A stretch of 5,883 bases of DNA, taken from the NCBI GenBank assembly GCA_030630935.1, contig DAOVMD010000219.1, positions 1 through 5,883 on the forward strand. Direction: 5' to 3'. The stretch is from Candidatus Mcinerneyibacteriota bacterium (GTDB lineage Bacteria > AUK180 > JAQVHJ01). Below are positions 3 through 5,883 of the stretch, piece after piece (the stretch's first letter is position 1; each line of letters begins with the position of its first letter). The notes beneath the pieces were generated by a model. That model did not search any database. It saw only the letters and a program-made list of their open reading frames with translations, and had not been told where the DNA came from. The position numbers were made by a program, and so were the translations under genes.

Positions 3-812
3 TGAAATATGAATACAATGTGCAAGAATTGTTTTTGGGTTCAATATATTAAAGTGGTTTAATAAATGAACGACTCCATTGTACCCGCGCTTTTTAGCTA
101 ATTGAAAATCCTCAATACCTTCAGCACAATGAATATGGAAACCCGCATCAACTTCTGACCCAAGTTCAACTGCTTTCTTAAATGTTTTATCCTTGATCGT
201 AAAACTTGCATGAAGCCCAAATAAAGCTGCGTGCATTGGATTCTTATTCTTCTTAACTTTCTTTAGATATCTAATATTCTCCTCAAGACCTTCGTTCCGA
301 ATTTTTGCACCATCTCTATCTGAGACTTCATAACATAATATACTTCTAAGTCCAACCTTGTCAAAAGCTTTCTCAATCTTATCAAGTGACCCTGCAATAG
401 AATTGGGAGATGCATGATGATCAATAATTGATGTGACCCCTTGCTTCACTGCATCAATTAAAATTACCAGCGTACTGTAATAAACATCTTCAAGTGTAAG
501 TTTCTTATCAAGTTTCCACCATAATCCTTTCAGGATATCAGAGAATTTATTTGGATTGAAACCAGGTAGTCCCATACCCCGGGCGAATGTTGAATAAAAA
601 TGCATATGCGGATTTATAATGCCGGGCATAACAATTCTACCTGAAGCATCAATAGTCTTTTTAGGACGTTTAAGTTTTTTACTCTTTAAATCCTTCATTG
701 AACCAAATGCCTTAATCTTCCCTTCTTCCAGATAAACAAAACCGTTATTGATTACACGATCATTATTATCAAATGTAAGTATCACACCATTCTTAATCAA
801 TATAGTTGACAT
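3..812 (-). CDS. ssnA: SsnA-type aminohydrolase (amidohydrolase superfamily), C-terminus cut by window edge
   Basis: The first 270 residues of a metal-dependent amidohydrolase are present; the remainder (the family is about 440 residues) lies beyond the left edge. Seen: an N-terminal beta strand region (residues 1-65), the metal-binding PHMH motif (His69, His71) after VMPGIIN, then FARGM, ILKGLWWKLD (93-102), DHHASPNS (131-138), LCYEVSDRDG (159-168), GLHASF (His201), FHIHCAE (His226, His228, Glu231) and LAHCIHIS (His265). The LWWKLD, DHHASPN and CYEVSDRDG blocks are what I associate with SsnA rather than with generic cytosine or guanine deaminases. Family knowledge: SsnA proteins are cytoplasmic putative aminohydrolases, often encoded with selenium-dependent molybdenum hydroxylase genes (ygfK-ssnA-ygfM-xdhD in E. 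coli); the substrate is not established. The start at 812 is supported by AAGGAGA four bases upstream. It follows the DUF3857 gene by 87 bp, with a hairpin between. The last metal-ligand Asp is outside the window, so catalytic integrity cannot be fully judged. Confidence 0.9.
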   Translation of the reverse strand, partial: MSTILIKNGVILTFDNNDRVINNGFVYLEEGKIKAFGSMKDLKSKKLKRPKKTIDASGRIVMPGIINPHMHFYSTFARGMGLPGFNPNKFSDILKGLWWKLDKKLTLEDVYYSTLVILIDAVKQGVTSIIDHHASPNSIAGSLDKIEKAFDKVGLRSILCYEVSDRDGAKIRNEGLEENIRYLKKVKKNKNPMHAALFGLHASFTIKDKTFKKAVELGSEVDAGFHIHCAEGIEDFQLAKKRGYNGVVHLLNHFNILNPKTILAHCIHIS

Positions 813-890: not shown

Positions 891-920
891 ATTATATCTC
901 TATCTTTCTAAAATTATCCA
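891..920 (-). promoter_or_regulatory. Possible internal promoter for the ssnA-type gene
   Basis: On the minus strand a perfect TATAAT (-10, 891-896) sits just after the stop codon of the upstream gene. TGGATA (915-920), a 4-of-6 match to TTGACA, lies 18 bases upstream. Transcription would begin near 884, just before the hairpin at 846-881, giving a leader of about 70 bases. In AT-rich DNA a TATAAT can arise by chance and the -35 is weak, so this is tentative. Confidence 0.3.
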
Positions 921-2990
921 TTCCTTGGAATATTGAGCACGGTCTTCAATGAAAGCCTTGAACGATTTATAAACACTTGAAGGAAACATCTCAGCTGTTC
1001 TATAATATTCATCCTTGAAATATATCTTATTACCTTTTGTTTTAAATTCTGCGGTATAAGAAATACTATCTTCAACTTTCTTTTCAAGTTTCTTAGGAAT
1101 ATAATAAACCTTATAGCCTTTAGGATATGTTAATTCAACATTATTAGAATAATACGAGATCCCATTCCATTTCATAGGGAATGTCCTGGTTGGTTTGCCC
1201 ACATTATACGCGCCATACCTGATTTCAGGAATTTTAAATACGAAGAATTTCTTTCCTGCTACGATTGCATAATCCTTAATTCTATATTTAATTTTAATTT
1301 TAATTGGTTTATCTAATTCCTTCATATTTAAAATCTTATACGAGATCAGTTCAGCTTTTGTATCAGCGGCATTAACAATATTCTGGATATTTTTATCAAT
1401 CTCTTCCTTCATTAAATCTTTATATGATCGGATTGTACCTGAAGCTGACCCATGAGCAGTAAAAGTCTTATCAACAATAATGGTGCCATTTGCTTGAAGA
1501 ATCATTTTATAATCAGCTTTTGAGAACTCAATATCCTTATCAAATATTGGTATGGTTTCAAACATCTCTTTTCCTGTAACATTCAAAGCAATTCGATTCT
1601 GATATGATTTTGGCAGTTCATAAAGACCAAGTGTTTCATTGACTGGATATAGATAATAATTCCTATTATCTACTGTAACTTTTACGATTGCAGTTGAGAA
1701 CTGTTCAATTGAAGGAAGTTCCTTATAAAATTCACCATAGCTTGAAGGTGAAACAAGTAAAAATTCCGGATTTAAACCTGCTTCCTTCAAGAGTGCATAA
1801 AGAAAAAATGATTTATCAAGTGAATTCCCTGAACTCTTCTTATGAATCTCAGATATTTTCTTAGGTTTATAGCTATAGCTTCCCGGAGAAACATAAATGA
1901 ACTTGATTTTTTTCGCAACATAATCATATAGTTTATTCAATATTTCAAAATCTGATTTTGAATCTTTAACAAGTGAATTCAATCTGGTTTTGAAATCTTC
2001 ATTAGTATCTAAACTATCCTTGAGTGCAGTTTGATATTCAGATTTTATATCTTCCCACTGACCTTCCATTGTAACTGCAATCTTAGGGAAAATTAAATGA
2101 TATGAAGGCATCATGTTCTCTCGGATAACTTCTTTTGAATTCTTTGAAATCCAGGTAAGAACTTTATAACCCTTCTCCTTGGACTCCTTGAACTGCACAT
2201 CGCCCTTGTCTAATCTCTTTTCAACTGGTGGGAGATATTTCATGTTCTCGGGAATATAAACCTTTACAACTTTCTTAAATACAGGTTCACTTTCACGAAA
2301 TAAACTCTCAACATAAAATGGCCTGAAAATATCATTTACCTTTCTGGTCTTCTTAACTTTAATATCTGAAATATCGCCAACCTTTACTTCCGGAACAGTT
2401 AGTTTTAAAGATTTTAATCTCTCGTAATCAGGGTTAGTTGAAAAAACAGAAGTCTTGGCAATCGCGTTCTCTTCAACGTGAAATAAACTGCCATCCTTCT
2501 TAATCGCTCGAGCCCAAAGAATCTCCATATCTTCGTTATCACCAAGAAAAGTAAATGATTGGGTGGCAATTGACCGACCGTCTTCATTCAAGGATTTCCT
2601 GATTAATCTAATTTCAACTTCTGAAGAATTATCAGGATTTAATTTGTAAATATATTCCTTGTAAAGAGTTACATAACTTGAATTGGGGTAATCCTTCTGG
2701 GATACTTCAATTTTAATTGCTTCATTTAGAATTGAATCTTTTAACTTTTCAACTTTTGAAAACTTATCTCCTGCACGGGTTTTACTAAGCTCAATTCGCA
2801 TAACATCCGCAACTGTAAATTCCTTAATCTCACCTTTTCCATAAATCTTAAATTTAACCATACCTCCTGATATACTAAGGAGGCTCCCCTTATACTCCTC
2901 TCCCGCATTTGTAGTTAAAATATCTGCGGAGACAGAGCCTGAAAGGAAAATTAAAAATATTACCAATAAAATCCCAAATCGCTTTATCAT
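900..2990 (-). CDS. Secreted DUF3857/transglutaminase-like protein lacking the catalytic triad
   Basis: A 696-aa exported protein. Residues 1-22 form a signal peptide (hydrophobic core ILLVIFLIFL, likely signal peptidase I cleavage after SVSA). There is no lipobox, and there is no cysteine anywhere in the protein. Residues about 24-70 form a small beta-rich module. A DUF3857-type region follows (about 100-300), including VPEVKVGDISD (199-209) and MMPSYHLIFPKIAVT (293-307). A transglutaminase-like fold spans about 340-450, and a beta-rich C-terminal region runs to the end. Aligned by eye to the upstream gene product, the catalytic positions are replaced: Cys by Ser390 (SGNSLDKS), His by Thr433 (STAIVKV) and Asp by Tyr448 (YLYPV). 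It is therefore probably a pseudoenzyme acting as a binding or scaffold partner in the periplasm or at the envelope; the substrate is unknown. The start is supported by AAAGGAG at 3000-3006. It is co-transcribed with, and probably translationally coupled to, the gene 14 bp upstream. The family assignment is good; the role is inferred. Confidence 0.88.
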   Translation of the reverse strand: MIKRFGILLVIFLIFLSGSVSADILTTNAGEEYKGSLLSISGGMVKFKIYGKGEIKEFTVADVMRIELSKTRAGDKFSKVEKLKDSILNEAIKIEVSQKDYPNSSYVTLYKEYIYKLNPDNSSEVEIRLIRKSLNEDGRSIATQSFTFLGDNEDMEILWARAIKKDGSLFHVEENAIAKTSVFSTNPDYERLKSLKLTVPEVKVGDISDIKVKKTRKVNDIFRPFYVESLFRESEPVFKKVVKVYIPENMKYLPPVEKRLDKGDVQFKESKEKGYKVLTWISKNSKEVIRENMMPSYHLIFPKIAVTMEGQWEDIKSEYQTALKDSLDTNEDFKTRLNSLVKDSKSDFEILNKLYDYVAKKIKFIYVSPGSYSYKPKKISEIHKKSSGNSLDKSFFLYALLKEAGLNPEFLLVSPSSYGEFYKELPSIEQFSTAIVKVTVDNRNYYLYPVNETLGLYELPKSYQNRIALNVTGKEMFETIPIFDKDIEFSKADYKMILQANGTIIVDKTFTAHGSASGTIRSYKDLMKEEIDKNIQNIVNAADTKAELISYKILNMKELDKPIKIKIKYRIKDYAIVAGKKFFVFKIPEIRYGAYNVGKPTRTFPMKWNGISYYSNNVELTYPKGYKVYYIPKKLEKKVEDSISYTAEFKTKGNKIYFKDEYYRTAEMFPSSVYKSFKAFIEDRAQYSKEWIILER

Positions 2991-2999
2991 TATTTTATA

Positions 3000-3006
3000 C
3001 TCCTTT
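3000..3006 (-). promoter_or_regulatory. Ribosome binding site overlapping the upstream stop codon (translational coupling)
   Basis: AAAGGAG on the minus strand lies nine bases before the ATG at 2990 and overlaps the TAA stop (3005-3007) of the preceding gene. Terminating ribosomes would sit on this site, so coupled translation of the two paralogues is likely. Confidence 0.75.
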
Positions 3007-5128
3007 ACTTTGTTGAGAAGAAGATTTGTTCTTGACTGAACTTTGATATCTTCTGTAAAAGTTTTTTATGTGACTGATAATCTTCCTTTTTAACCTTAGT
3101 CTTTAAAATCTTAATATGATCTTCATAAATTAAATGTCCAGCCTCAACAACATAAGAACCTTTATAATCAATATATTTCGATTTATAACGAACTGGTTTT
3201 GGGATATATTCAATTTTATAGTTCTTTGGAATTTTAATTTTGTATTTGTATCCTTCCATCTTTACAGAACTATAAACAAGATCATATCGCCGTGTCTTTA
3301 ATCCTACTTCCGGGAAACGATGGGTTACGGGCATCTTAAAAATCACAAGATCGTGAGCAAAAACAGGATACTTGGGAAGTTCATAGTTTATAGAGGTCTG
3401 TAAAGGTTCGGAAATTGTCTCTTCATTTTTAACAACCAATTCCTTTAATTGAGCTCCTGGTGAAATTGAATTCAGGTAATCCTGGAACATTTTTGTTCTA
3501 TACTCACCTTTATACATCTTGAACAAGCCTTTAAATCCCATTTCATAGTCACCGTAAAAAAGCCATTTCTCTGTAATCTTAAGGTCACCAGTTTCGGTTA
3601 ACTCACCTTCTGTCTCGCGTAACCAGGAATTCTCTTCCGGCTTATTATCGGGGATGAAACCGATTTTCCTCGTAATCTCATTCACGTATGAAATTCCTTT
3701 ATCACTTGTCGGGAAATATGGATACCTGAATGGCGGGCTGGTAGAATCTAAAATAATTGTTTTACCGTCTAAAATTACTTCGGTAATCGCATGATTCGCA
3801 TCCATCATAGGAATATCCCTGATCGCAGTACTGTCACCTCGAGTTCTAACTGAAATCGGGTAAGATTCAATCTCAACAACTTTGAGCATGGTTGAAAAGA
3901 GAATTGCCTTATCAATACAATCACCATAACCGTTTGTCATTGTCTCAAGAGCAGGATGACCAGTCCAACCTGTTGAGATATCTCCTTTAATTGAGATGTA
4001 TTCAATGTTCTTCTGAACCCAATGATAGATCGCGGCTAATTTCTCTTCTTTCGTCTTAGCTTTTGCGGTGGTAACTATTTCATTTACTTTCTGTTCAATC
4101 TCAGGCGTAACAGCAATCTTCTCCTTAATTAATTTATTGGACCAGCTCATTAAAAAATCCCAGGAGGGAGTTGTTGTAAATGCAATCTTAGGTAAAACAT
4201 CGCCTAAGCCCGGCATCATTATTTCCTTAATTAATGGCGGTGTATCAAAAGTCTCCCAGGTGTAGATGAGATTCTCTCCATCTTTAGTAATTTTCGGAGT
4301 TTTTGATTTGGCGGGCATATTTCGTGTCGCAAACTGCAGTTTCTTATCCTTGGGTATGATTATTTTGATCTTGGAATGTACAACAGGTTCCGTTGATGCA
4401 AAATACCATCTTCCCTGGAAAATATCCGGATTGAAAGGATTAAAATATTTCACAACATAATCAAACTCAACTAAATTACCAACTTCAACATTTGGTAATG
4501 TAAATGAAAATACTTCACCTCTGCTATAAAACTTTGCACCTGCGGTAGGTTTTGCAATCTTGATAGATTTTGGATCCATATCATAAATCTTACCATCAGG
4601 AGTTATTGTTCTACCACGATTAACTTCAATCTTGAATCGGGATTTATCAAGATAATGACCCATTTTACCCCAACTCTTAGCTGAAGGCTTAAGAATAATA
4701 CCTATAACTTTGGTATGATTCTCACGAGTTCCATCAGGATATAAAGTCCAGGTACCTTCATCTACAATATTAATACCTTCAACATCAGGATATTTCTTTA
4801 ATGTTTCTTCGGCTATCTTGAAGTATTTCTTGTACTTCTCAAATTCCTTCTCATCTACCTTTACGGTTTCCTGGGTCGTGACAGACTCTTGAGTCTGCTT
4901 CTCACCAAAAGTGATCTCGCGAATATCATTCTTATCCACCTTGACCTGCTTCCCATCCTGATCAAATACAAATACCCCATTCTTGTACTTTAAAAGGGTA
5001 CTCTTCTCAATAGGTTGGTTTCGGTAATCAATACTTACAGGAACCGGAACAGGTTTCTCACACCCAGATAATATGACTGTGAAAATCATAAGGGCTGCAA
5101 GAAGTATTAAAATTTGCCGTTTCTTCAT
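3005..5128 (-). CDS. DUF3857/transglutaminase-like lipoprotein with intact catalytic triad
   Basis: A 707-aa lipoprotein. The signal peptide ends in the lipobox LSGC, so Cys23 would be lipidated. The residue after it is Glu, not the Asp that retains lipoproteins in the inner membrane of enterobacteria, so outer-membrane placement is possible in a diderm. Domains in order: a proline/valine tether (25-33); a small beta-rich module (about 38-75) ending IREITFGE; a Thr/Glu/Lys linker and helix (76-113); a DUF3857-type region (about 115-310) with TLYPDGT, LPNVEVGNLVEF (211-222) and MMPGLGDVLPKIAFT (304-318); a transglutaminase-like core (about 345-465); and a beta-rich C-terminal region. The core has Cys404 (YGDCIDKA), His446 (DANHAITEV) and Asp461 (IILDST), a plausible Cys-His-Asp triad. 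Cys23 and Cys404 are the only cysteines. Family knowledge: such folds can be cysteine proteases or peptide-crosslinking or -cleaving enzymes; the reaction here is unknown. It is the first gene of the operon, with AAGGAGG six bases before the ATG. Confidence 0.92.
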   Translation of the reverse strand: MKKRQILILLAALMIFTVILSGCEKPVPVPVSIDYRNQPIEKSTLLKYKNGVFVFDQDGKQVKVDKNDIREITFGEKQTQESVTTQETVKVDEKEFEKYKKYFKIAEETLKKYPDVEGINIVDEGTWTLYPDGTRENHTKVIGIILKPSAKSWGKMGHYLDKSRFKIEVNRGRTITPDGKIYDMDPKSIKIAKPTAGAKFYSRGEVFSFTLPNVEVGNLVEFDYVVKYFNPFNPDIFQGRWYFASTEPVVHSKIKIIIPKDKKLQFATRNMPAKSKTPKITKDGENLIYTWETFDTPPLIKEIMMPGLGDVLPKIAFTTTPSWDFLMSWSNKLIKEKIAVTPEIEQKVNEIVTTAKAKTKEEKLAAIYHWVQKNIEYISIKGDISTGWTGHPALETMTNGYGDCIDKAILFSTMLKVVEIESYPISVRTRGDSTAIRDIPMMDANHAITEVILDGKTIILDSTSPPFRYPYFPTSDKGISYVNEITRKIGFIPDNKPEENSWLRETEGELTETGDLKITEKWLFYGDYEMGFKGLFKMYKGEYRTKMFQDYLNSISPGAQLKELVVKNEETISEPLQTSINYELPKYPVFAHDLVIFKMPVTHRFPEVGLKTRRYDLVYSSVKMEGYKYKIKIPKNYKIEYIPKPVRYKSKYIDYKGSYVVEAGHLIYEDHIKILKTKVKKEDYQSHKKLLQKISKFSQEQIFFSTK

Positions 5129-5504: not shown

Positions 5505-5525
5505 ACCGGAAAATGGTTGACTTTT

Positions 5526-5883
5526 ATGAAGATAAAATGTATAATAAATGAACAAAATAATAAGAGGAATTATGATCAAAAAAAACTGTTTAAATTTAGA
5601 GAAAAAGTTAACCGTATGCATTTTGAAGAGGGTATTGTAAAGAATGAGATCATTAGGAGAATGCATTCAAATAAGAAGTTTGTACTAAGATGGACACAAT
5701 CACCGAATCAGAATTTCGAAGAAGACAATAGAGGTTGGAAAAAGGGTAAAATGAGAAAATGGGATGAGAAGACATTAAATAGGATAAAAGAAATTCATAA
5801 ATTTCTAAGTAGTGATTCATCCAAATATTTTACAGGAGCTACAGCAATTACTCAAGAGTGGATAAAGAGATATCCGAAAGAAA
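5526..5883 (+). CDS. Helix-turn-helix transposase/integrase-like protein, N-terminal part, cut by window edge
   Basis: The frame is open from 5499 to the window end; from the ATG at 5526 it gives 119 residues of a lysine/arginine-rich protein. Residues about 24-57 (FREKVNRMHFEEGIVKNEII then FVLRW) resemble a helix-turn-helix of the kind found at the N-terminus of IS481/IS3-like and other integrase-core transposases. NRGWKKGKMRKWDEKTLNRI (68-87) leads into a second helical segment with TGATAITQEWIKRYP (103-117). The DDE catalytic domain, if present, lies beyond the window. The start is uncertain: ATG 5526 has no ribosome binding site, ATG 5616 has only a weak one, and the best site (AAAGGAG, 5498-5504) precedes ATG 5513 in another frame that stops after 12 codons. 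That suggests a frameshift near 5545 and perhaps a decaying element. The transposase identity is a judgement from overall pattern, not a firm match. Confidence 0.55.
   Translation, partial: MKIKCIINEQNNKRNYDQKKLFKFREKVNRMHFEEGIVKNEIIRRMHSNKKFVLRWTQSPNQNFEEDNRGWKKGKMRKWDEKTLNRIKEIHKFLSSDSSKYFTGATAITQEWIKRYPKE

Follow-up and report, generated by a model that had tools for sequence, protein, structure and literature searches.

The window analysed in this study is an entire contig of 5883 bp (G000:C40) from a draft genome of 3.16 Mb, and it raises the question of why a bacterium would keep, directly behind the gene of a predicted transglutaminase-like enzyme, the gene of a paralogue that has lost all three catalytic residues. 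Both genes are intact open reading frames on the minus strand. The first (positions 3005–5128) encodes P0001 with 707 amino acid residues, which its open reading frame, Pfam matches, AlphaFold2 model and alignment with relatives predict to be an active enzyme with an intact triad. The second (900–2990) encodes P0002 with 696 residues, which on the same kinds of evidence is predicted to be a pseudoenzyme partner. The most probable answer, to which we assign a probability of roughly 0.7, is that P0001 and P0002 form a couple of enzyme and pseudoenzyme in the cell envelope, in which an ancient dead paralogue has been kept as a dedicated partner, most likely within a heteromer.

The two genes are separated by a 14-nt spacer (2991–3004). 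It includes an AGGAG Shine-Dalgarno-like site (3000–3004, minus strand) nine nucleotides ahead of the ATG of gene 2, which makes co-transcription and coupled translation of P0001 and P0002 plausible from the sequence. The earlier note had described the second gene as intact and equipped with a signal peptide and a ribosome binding site, and this description was borne out. Downstream of the pair and on the same strand is a truncated amidohydrolase gene (3–812, minus strand; Amidohydro_1, 79.6 bits). The plus strand contains only one short frame of 122 amino acid residues (5517–5882), which runs off the contig end and has no Pfam match; judged by its appearance, it may encode the beginning of a transposase-like protein. 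A third DUF3857 gene of the same genome (L045, contig G000:C82, minus strand) is located at a contig end that cuts it before the triad.

The architecture of the two products is shared, as had been proposed from the sequence. P0001 starts with a signal peptide and a lipobox (LSGC, Cys23), followed by an N-terminal beta module (residues ~29–75), a DUF3857 domain (131–298), a transglutaminase-like core (~320–495) and then a beta-rich C-terminal domain. P0002 starts with an ordinary signal-like N-terminus, followed by an N-terminal beta module (~23–68), a DUF3857 domain (119–287), a degenerate transglutaminase core (~310–483) and then a C-terminal domain. About 700 residues of the two proteins could be aligned with an identity of 22% (E = 3e-25). 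DUF3857 (PF12969) passed the Pfam cut-off of 24.6 bits in both proteins, with 103.8 bits in P0001 and 54.0 bits in P0002, and Transglut_core (PF01841; cut-off 23) scored 49.6 bits in P0001 and 14.8 bits, under the cut-off, in P0002. No named family for the window proteins was found in NCBIfam, and an Rfam search of the window returned zero matches. The AlphaFold2 models, which were built on 52–53 homologues and had pLDDT values of 91.4 for P0001 and 93.1 for P0002, showed the same fold with a near-identical order of elements. The best PDB match for both models was 3KD4 (Z 30.3, 492–495 residues aligned), and the next structural matches were transglutaminases and LapG (Z 10–12). In addition, the DUF3857 region (100–309 of P0002 and 115–321 of P0001) resembled the ribophorin I/OST1 domains of oligosaccharyltransferase (Z 10–11 for P0002) as well as the N-terminal domain of M1 aminopeptidases.

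The Cys-His-Asp triad was present at the expected helix and strand positions of the fold in P0001 and absent from them in P0002. The catalytic residues of P0001, identified from sequence and alignment, are Cys404 (codon at 3917–3919), His446 (3791–3793) and Asp461 (3746–3748, all on the minus strand), and each is invariant among 52 active relatives. All three are replaced in P0002, where Ser390 (1821–1823) is at the place of the Cys, Thr433 (1692–1694) at that of the His and Tyr448 (1647–1649, all on the minus strand) at that of the Asp; P0002 has no cysteine in its whole length. The alignment and the AlphaFold2 models agreed on these places, which are also those given in the earlier note. The catalytic helix begins at Cys404 in P0001 and at Ser390 in P0002, the His strand begins at His446 and Thr433, respectively, and the Asp position comes after strand 456–460 or 443–447. 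The same pair was found in a neighboring genus with identities of 66–67% and with the triads CHD and SNF. Thus, the replacements in P0002 are no sequencing accident.

The generality of this pairing was assessed with two samples. Scanning for genes related to the active one yielded 80 named loci. In the second sample, 386 genomes were searched for DUF3857, which was found in 101 of them, and 60 regions, most of which held neighboring or fused DUF3857 copies, were taken with their triads not inspected beforehand. The window's phylum had only seven members in the genome set compared. Triads were read off alignments, and removal of duplicates left 101 arrays, the window excluded. Eighty-eight of these arrays were active-dead, seven were dead-active, two were active-active-dead and four were single-protein fusions; none of the 101 was all active or all dead. 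The two triplets (L124 and L133) were the sole arrays seen with two intact triads. In a second phylum, that of G335 and probably Bacteroidota, each of the 20 arrays combined a single active copy, with the triad CHE or CHD, with one or two dead copies. Arrays with a working and a dead copy total more than 120 in many bacterial phyla, although they share ancestry and these counts are not counts of independent events. Among the hosts are Riflebacteria, Planctomycetota, Hydrogenedentota, WOR-3 (Caldifarciminota at NCBI), Spirochaetota, Latescibacterota, Nitrospirota, Muiribacteriota, Zixiibacteriota and Methylomirabilota, many of them metagenome bins whose names may err.

These results support the earlier suggestion of a pseudoenzyme partner, which would have been contradicted by genes that are never adjacent in related genomes: adjacent pairs recurred in the arrays of relatives, one member was dead in 101 of 101 and 20 of 20 arrays, and four fusions as well as nine genomes with one active and one dead gene apart added to them. 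Two narrower expectations fared differently. Loss of the triad was not confined to the second gene, and the rule that the dead gene always comes second was rejected, as the order was reversed in 7 of the 101 arrays and frequently in the second phylum. Lipid anchoring of the enzyme holds for P0001 with its lipobox Cys23 but is no general feature of its active relatives. A simple lipobox pattern, which misses some cases, was found in 8 of 91 active versus 10 of 90 dead genes, and the rule that the active protein is the lipoprotein was rejected. A signal-like N-terminus was found on nearly all copies, active and dead, and these signal sequences point to a location in the envelope.

Of the 88 active-dead pairs, 38 had an overlap of 4 nt or 1 nt; start codons were assigned mechanically, which accounts for a few large overlaps that are only apparent. 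In each of the four fusions, a single chain comprised an active N-terminal half and a dead C-terminal half, and the junction between them lacked a signal-like segment. L144 and L145 belong to one fusion family and L146 and L147 to two others; for L147, which is on the minus strand, the domain coordinates place the active half first. Nine genomes (G392, G395, G396, G398, G399, G007, G017, G165, and G301) contained one active and one dead gene that were unlinked. Mere tandem duplication fails to explain the pairing because these nine genomes hold the active and dead genes apart. Where an active gene was found without an adjacent partner, a dead copy was located elsewhere in most genomes. Solitary active DUF3857 genes are, however, present in other clades, in which a poorly scoring dead partner could be missed, and G393 and G394 each had one active gene without a matching dead copy. 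Thus, the dead partner is not universal. Moreover, longer DUF3857 proteins of ~1200 amino acid residues (L190, L191, L194, and L196) adjoin a homolog whose triad is degenerate, and the pairing thus extends to this subfamily.

A dead protein that accompanies an enzyme might nevertheless serve the same pathway without touching it; it could, for instance, be a surface protein that binds peptides or glycans and is merely co-expressed. The genes are mostly in one apparent operon, and dead transglutaminase domains at the N-termini of toxins have been proposed to be peptide-binding anchors (PMC3482391). Contact, however, explains the four active-dead fusions and the near one-to-one ratio better than a shared pathway alone, and we regard this first alternative as unlikely, if still the best placed of those considered here. 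P0001 and P0002 may therefore be in physical contact, as suggested chiefly by the fusions. The trees of active and dead proteins also matched (Mantel r 0.89), which is no proof of contact because co-inheritance alone suffices.

How the dead protein may act was approached through its conservation. At 41 matched loci, the mean identities among the active proteins were 0.44 for the core, 0.32 for DUF3857, 0.28 for the C-terminus and 0.22 for the N-terminal module, whereas those among the dead proteins were 0.29 for the N-terminal module, 0.26 for DUF3857, 0.23 for the C-terminus and 0.22 for the core, the lowest value. In the dead proteins, constraint has moved away from the core and onto the N-terminal module and the flanking domains, which suggests that the dead protein acts through these parts and that its core is a shell. 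The degenerate core as the least conserved part would also fit a neutral ratchet, in which duplication of a homodimeric transglutaminase ancestor was followed by loss of catalysis in one subunit and entrenchment of the heteromer, the dead subunit being a structural filler without a regulatory role. Biased mutation after duplication is reported to be able to favor heteromers without benefit (PMC11066126). The genomes with one active and one dead gene unlinked and the arrays in which two dead copies accompany one active copy suggest, however, more than a passive remnant, and the ratchet is also improbable and ranks behind the preceding alternative.

Under the preferred reading of an enzyme with a dedicated dead partner, P0001 would be a secreted and, in this bacterium, lipid-anchored thiol enzyme with a transglutaminase/LapG-like fold, acting as a peptidase, amidase or transamidase. 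P0002 would be its catalytically dead paralogue, held by selection as the dedicated partner of P0001. In the heteromer, the dead subunit might stabilize the active subunit, switch it on or deliver substrate to it, and the parts responsible would be its N-terminal module and its DUF3857 and C-terminal domains. The prozyme systems of trypanosomes provide a precedent for an enzyme activated by its dead paralogue (PMC5201418, PMC3663545).

The replacements in the dead proteins bear on whether the second protein could instead be an enzyme of another chemistry, with a Ser-based triad or with catalytic residues elsewhere. P0002 itself carries Ser in place of the Cys, and this was also the most frequent replacement, found in 24 of the 116 dead copies of the main set. 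However, the Cys position was occupied by 16 non-Cys residue types, including Pro, Leu, Ala, and Gly, and the His and Asp were usually lost as well. P0002 has Thr and Tyr at their places, and its ortholog has Asn and Phe. Moreover, no other polar residue of the core was nearly invariant among the dead proteins in the matched-locus conservation analysis. A conserved Ser-based triad, which would have spoken against a pseudoenzyme, was thus not found and was rejected as a candidate, and another chemistry is very improbable. The Cys was gone in 114 of the 116 dead copies, and one or two residues of the triad remained in some dead copies, such as CDD in L149 and L177 and VHD, AHD or PHD elsewhere. 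Dead copies with the remnants GHD and SHD also occurred in the second phylum.

The loss of the triad appears to be old. On a tree of 78 tips, from which the triad columns and their neighbors were omitted, the active/dead label changed three times, compared to a mean of 26 changes over 500 shuffles; a fast tree of 242 tips with the triad columns kept also gave three changes. Only three changes on the 78-tip tree indicate that the dead lineage is ancient. Dead partners clustered together per active subclade, and a single origin of the dead clade was compatible with the data (AU p 0.23), although the branches are long and the deep order is weak. In the 78-tip tree, the dead copy of G017 (L062) grouped with a solitary active gene and may represent an independent loss. 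The dN/dS values of dead genes were 0.06–0.20 where dS was <1, showing purifying selection; one dead-only comparison gave 0.34, and others were saturated in dS. Decay after tandem duplication commonly begins with the loss of catalytic residues, but full-length frames throughout, dN/dS values mostly of 0.06–0.20, a dead lineage spread over phyla and confidently predicted folds leave next to no room for a recent duplicate on its way to a pseudogene, and decay was rejected in agreement with the earlier view of the second gene.

Conserved co-occurrence of active and dead members and purifying selection on the dead member, which are criteria for prozyme-like enzyme-pseudoenzyme pairs, were both found here. 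In trypanosomes, AdoMetDC with its prozyme and deoxyhypusine synthase with its dead paralogue are active enzymes in complex with a dead paralogue (PMC5201418, PMC3663545). Different from the pair of the window, which is bacterial and predicted to be exported, these are unrelated enzymes of cytoplasmic eukaryotic metabolism. Similar to P0001, HvyA of Caulobacter, a member of the BTLCP family, is a transglutaminase-like protein of the envelope with a Cys-His-Asp triad (PMC4241560). HvyA consists, however, of a signal sequence and one BTLCP domain, restricts capsulation and has no dead partner described (PMC4241560). Inactive transglutaminases are known elsewhere, as in RloB (PMC12239564) and toxin leaders (PMC3482391). 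Similar to P0002, RloB and other inactive transglutaminases on seven transmembrane helices are triad-less envelope proteins encoded beside partner genes, and they have a phenotype (PMC12239564; also PMC12096838). RloB differs in that it is membrane-embedded, its partners are a retropepsin-like protease and an ATP-grasp protein rather than an active transglutaminase paralogue, and DUF3857 has not been reported for it. The P0002 model is instead soluble and beta-rich with one N-terminal signal helix and without the seven transmembrane helices of RloB, and Pfam gave this protein no domain besides DUF3857 and the weak transglutaminase core.

The closest structure, 3KD4, which was the only solved member of the family found, is BDI_1141 of Parabacteroides distasonis, a DUF3857 protein deposited as a "putative protease." It shares the overall fold of both window proteins but is without their N-terminal beta module. 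In our reading of the alignments, 3KD4 has Pro at the catalytic Cys and neither His nor Asp at the other two places. With its catalytic Cys replaced, 3KD4 resembles the dead class, which suggests that it should not be taken as a protease. Erythrocyte protein 4.2 was also among the fold matches of both models (7uzs, Z 8.9–10.9). This protein has a catalytically inactive transglutaminase fold and is retained as a structural partner. It differs from the window proteins in being part of the ankyrin complex of animal red cells and in having no DUF3857.

DUF3857 proteins are widespread and almost unstudied. In 5.39 million open-access papers, preprints excluded, DUF3857 was mentioned once, in passing, and no description of this active/dead pairing was found there. 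In this uncharacterized family, the enzyme very probably requires its dead twin as a partner, and DUF3857 transglutaminase-like enzymes probably work commonly with a pseudoenzyme partner as an envelope complex. The chances are about even for the wider proposal that a large share of bacterial DUF3857 enzymes are heteromers in which one active subunit is joined by one or two dead ones, derived from an ancient duplication and present in many phyla, with the dead subunit as an essential activator or substrate adaptor and 3KD4 as a dead subunit mislabeled as a protease. If so, two annotated hypothetical proteases would become one heteromeric enzyme, and assays should express both proteins. The arrays, including natural fusions and unlinked pairs, would also provide bacterial systems for studying the origin and regulation of pseudoenzymes.

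No partner gene common to all arrays was found in the neighborhoods examined, and neither of the following two neighbors was general across arrays. At 11 Riflebacteria-type loci (L118, L099, L090, L093, L096, L101, L109, L110, L119, L136, and L142), the gene directly downstream of the pair, a few nucleotides away or overlapping, encodes a membrane protein that resembles O-antigen ligases and carries TPR repeats; the copy of L118 that was tested scored 59.8 bits for Wzy_C. This neighbor hints at surface glycans as a lead to the function in the Riflebacteria-type lineage. In the window's phylum, the gene downstream of a second type of active/dead pair (L049, L050, L051, L052, and L055) overlaps the pair by a short stretch, and its product looks like a GIY-YIG (UvrC-like) nuclease.
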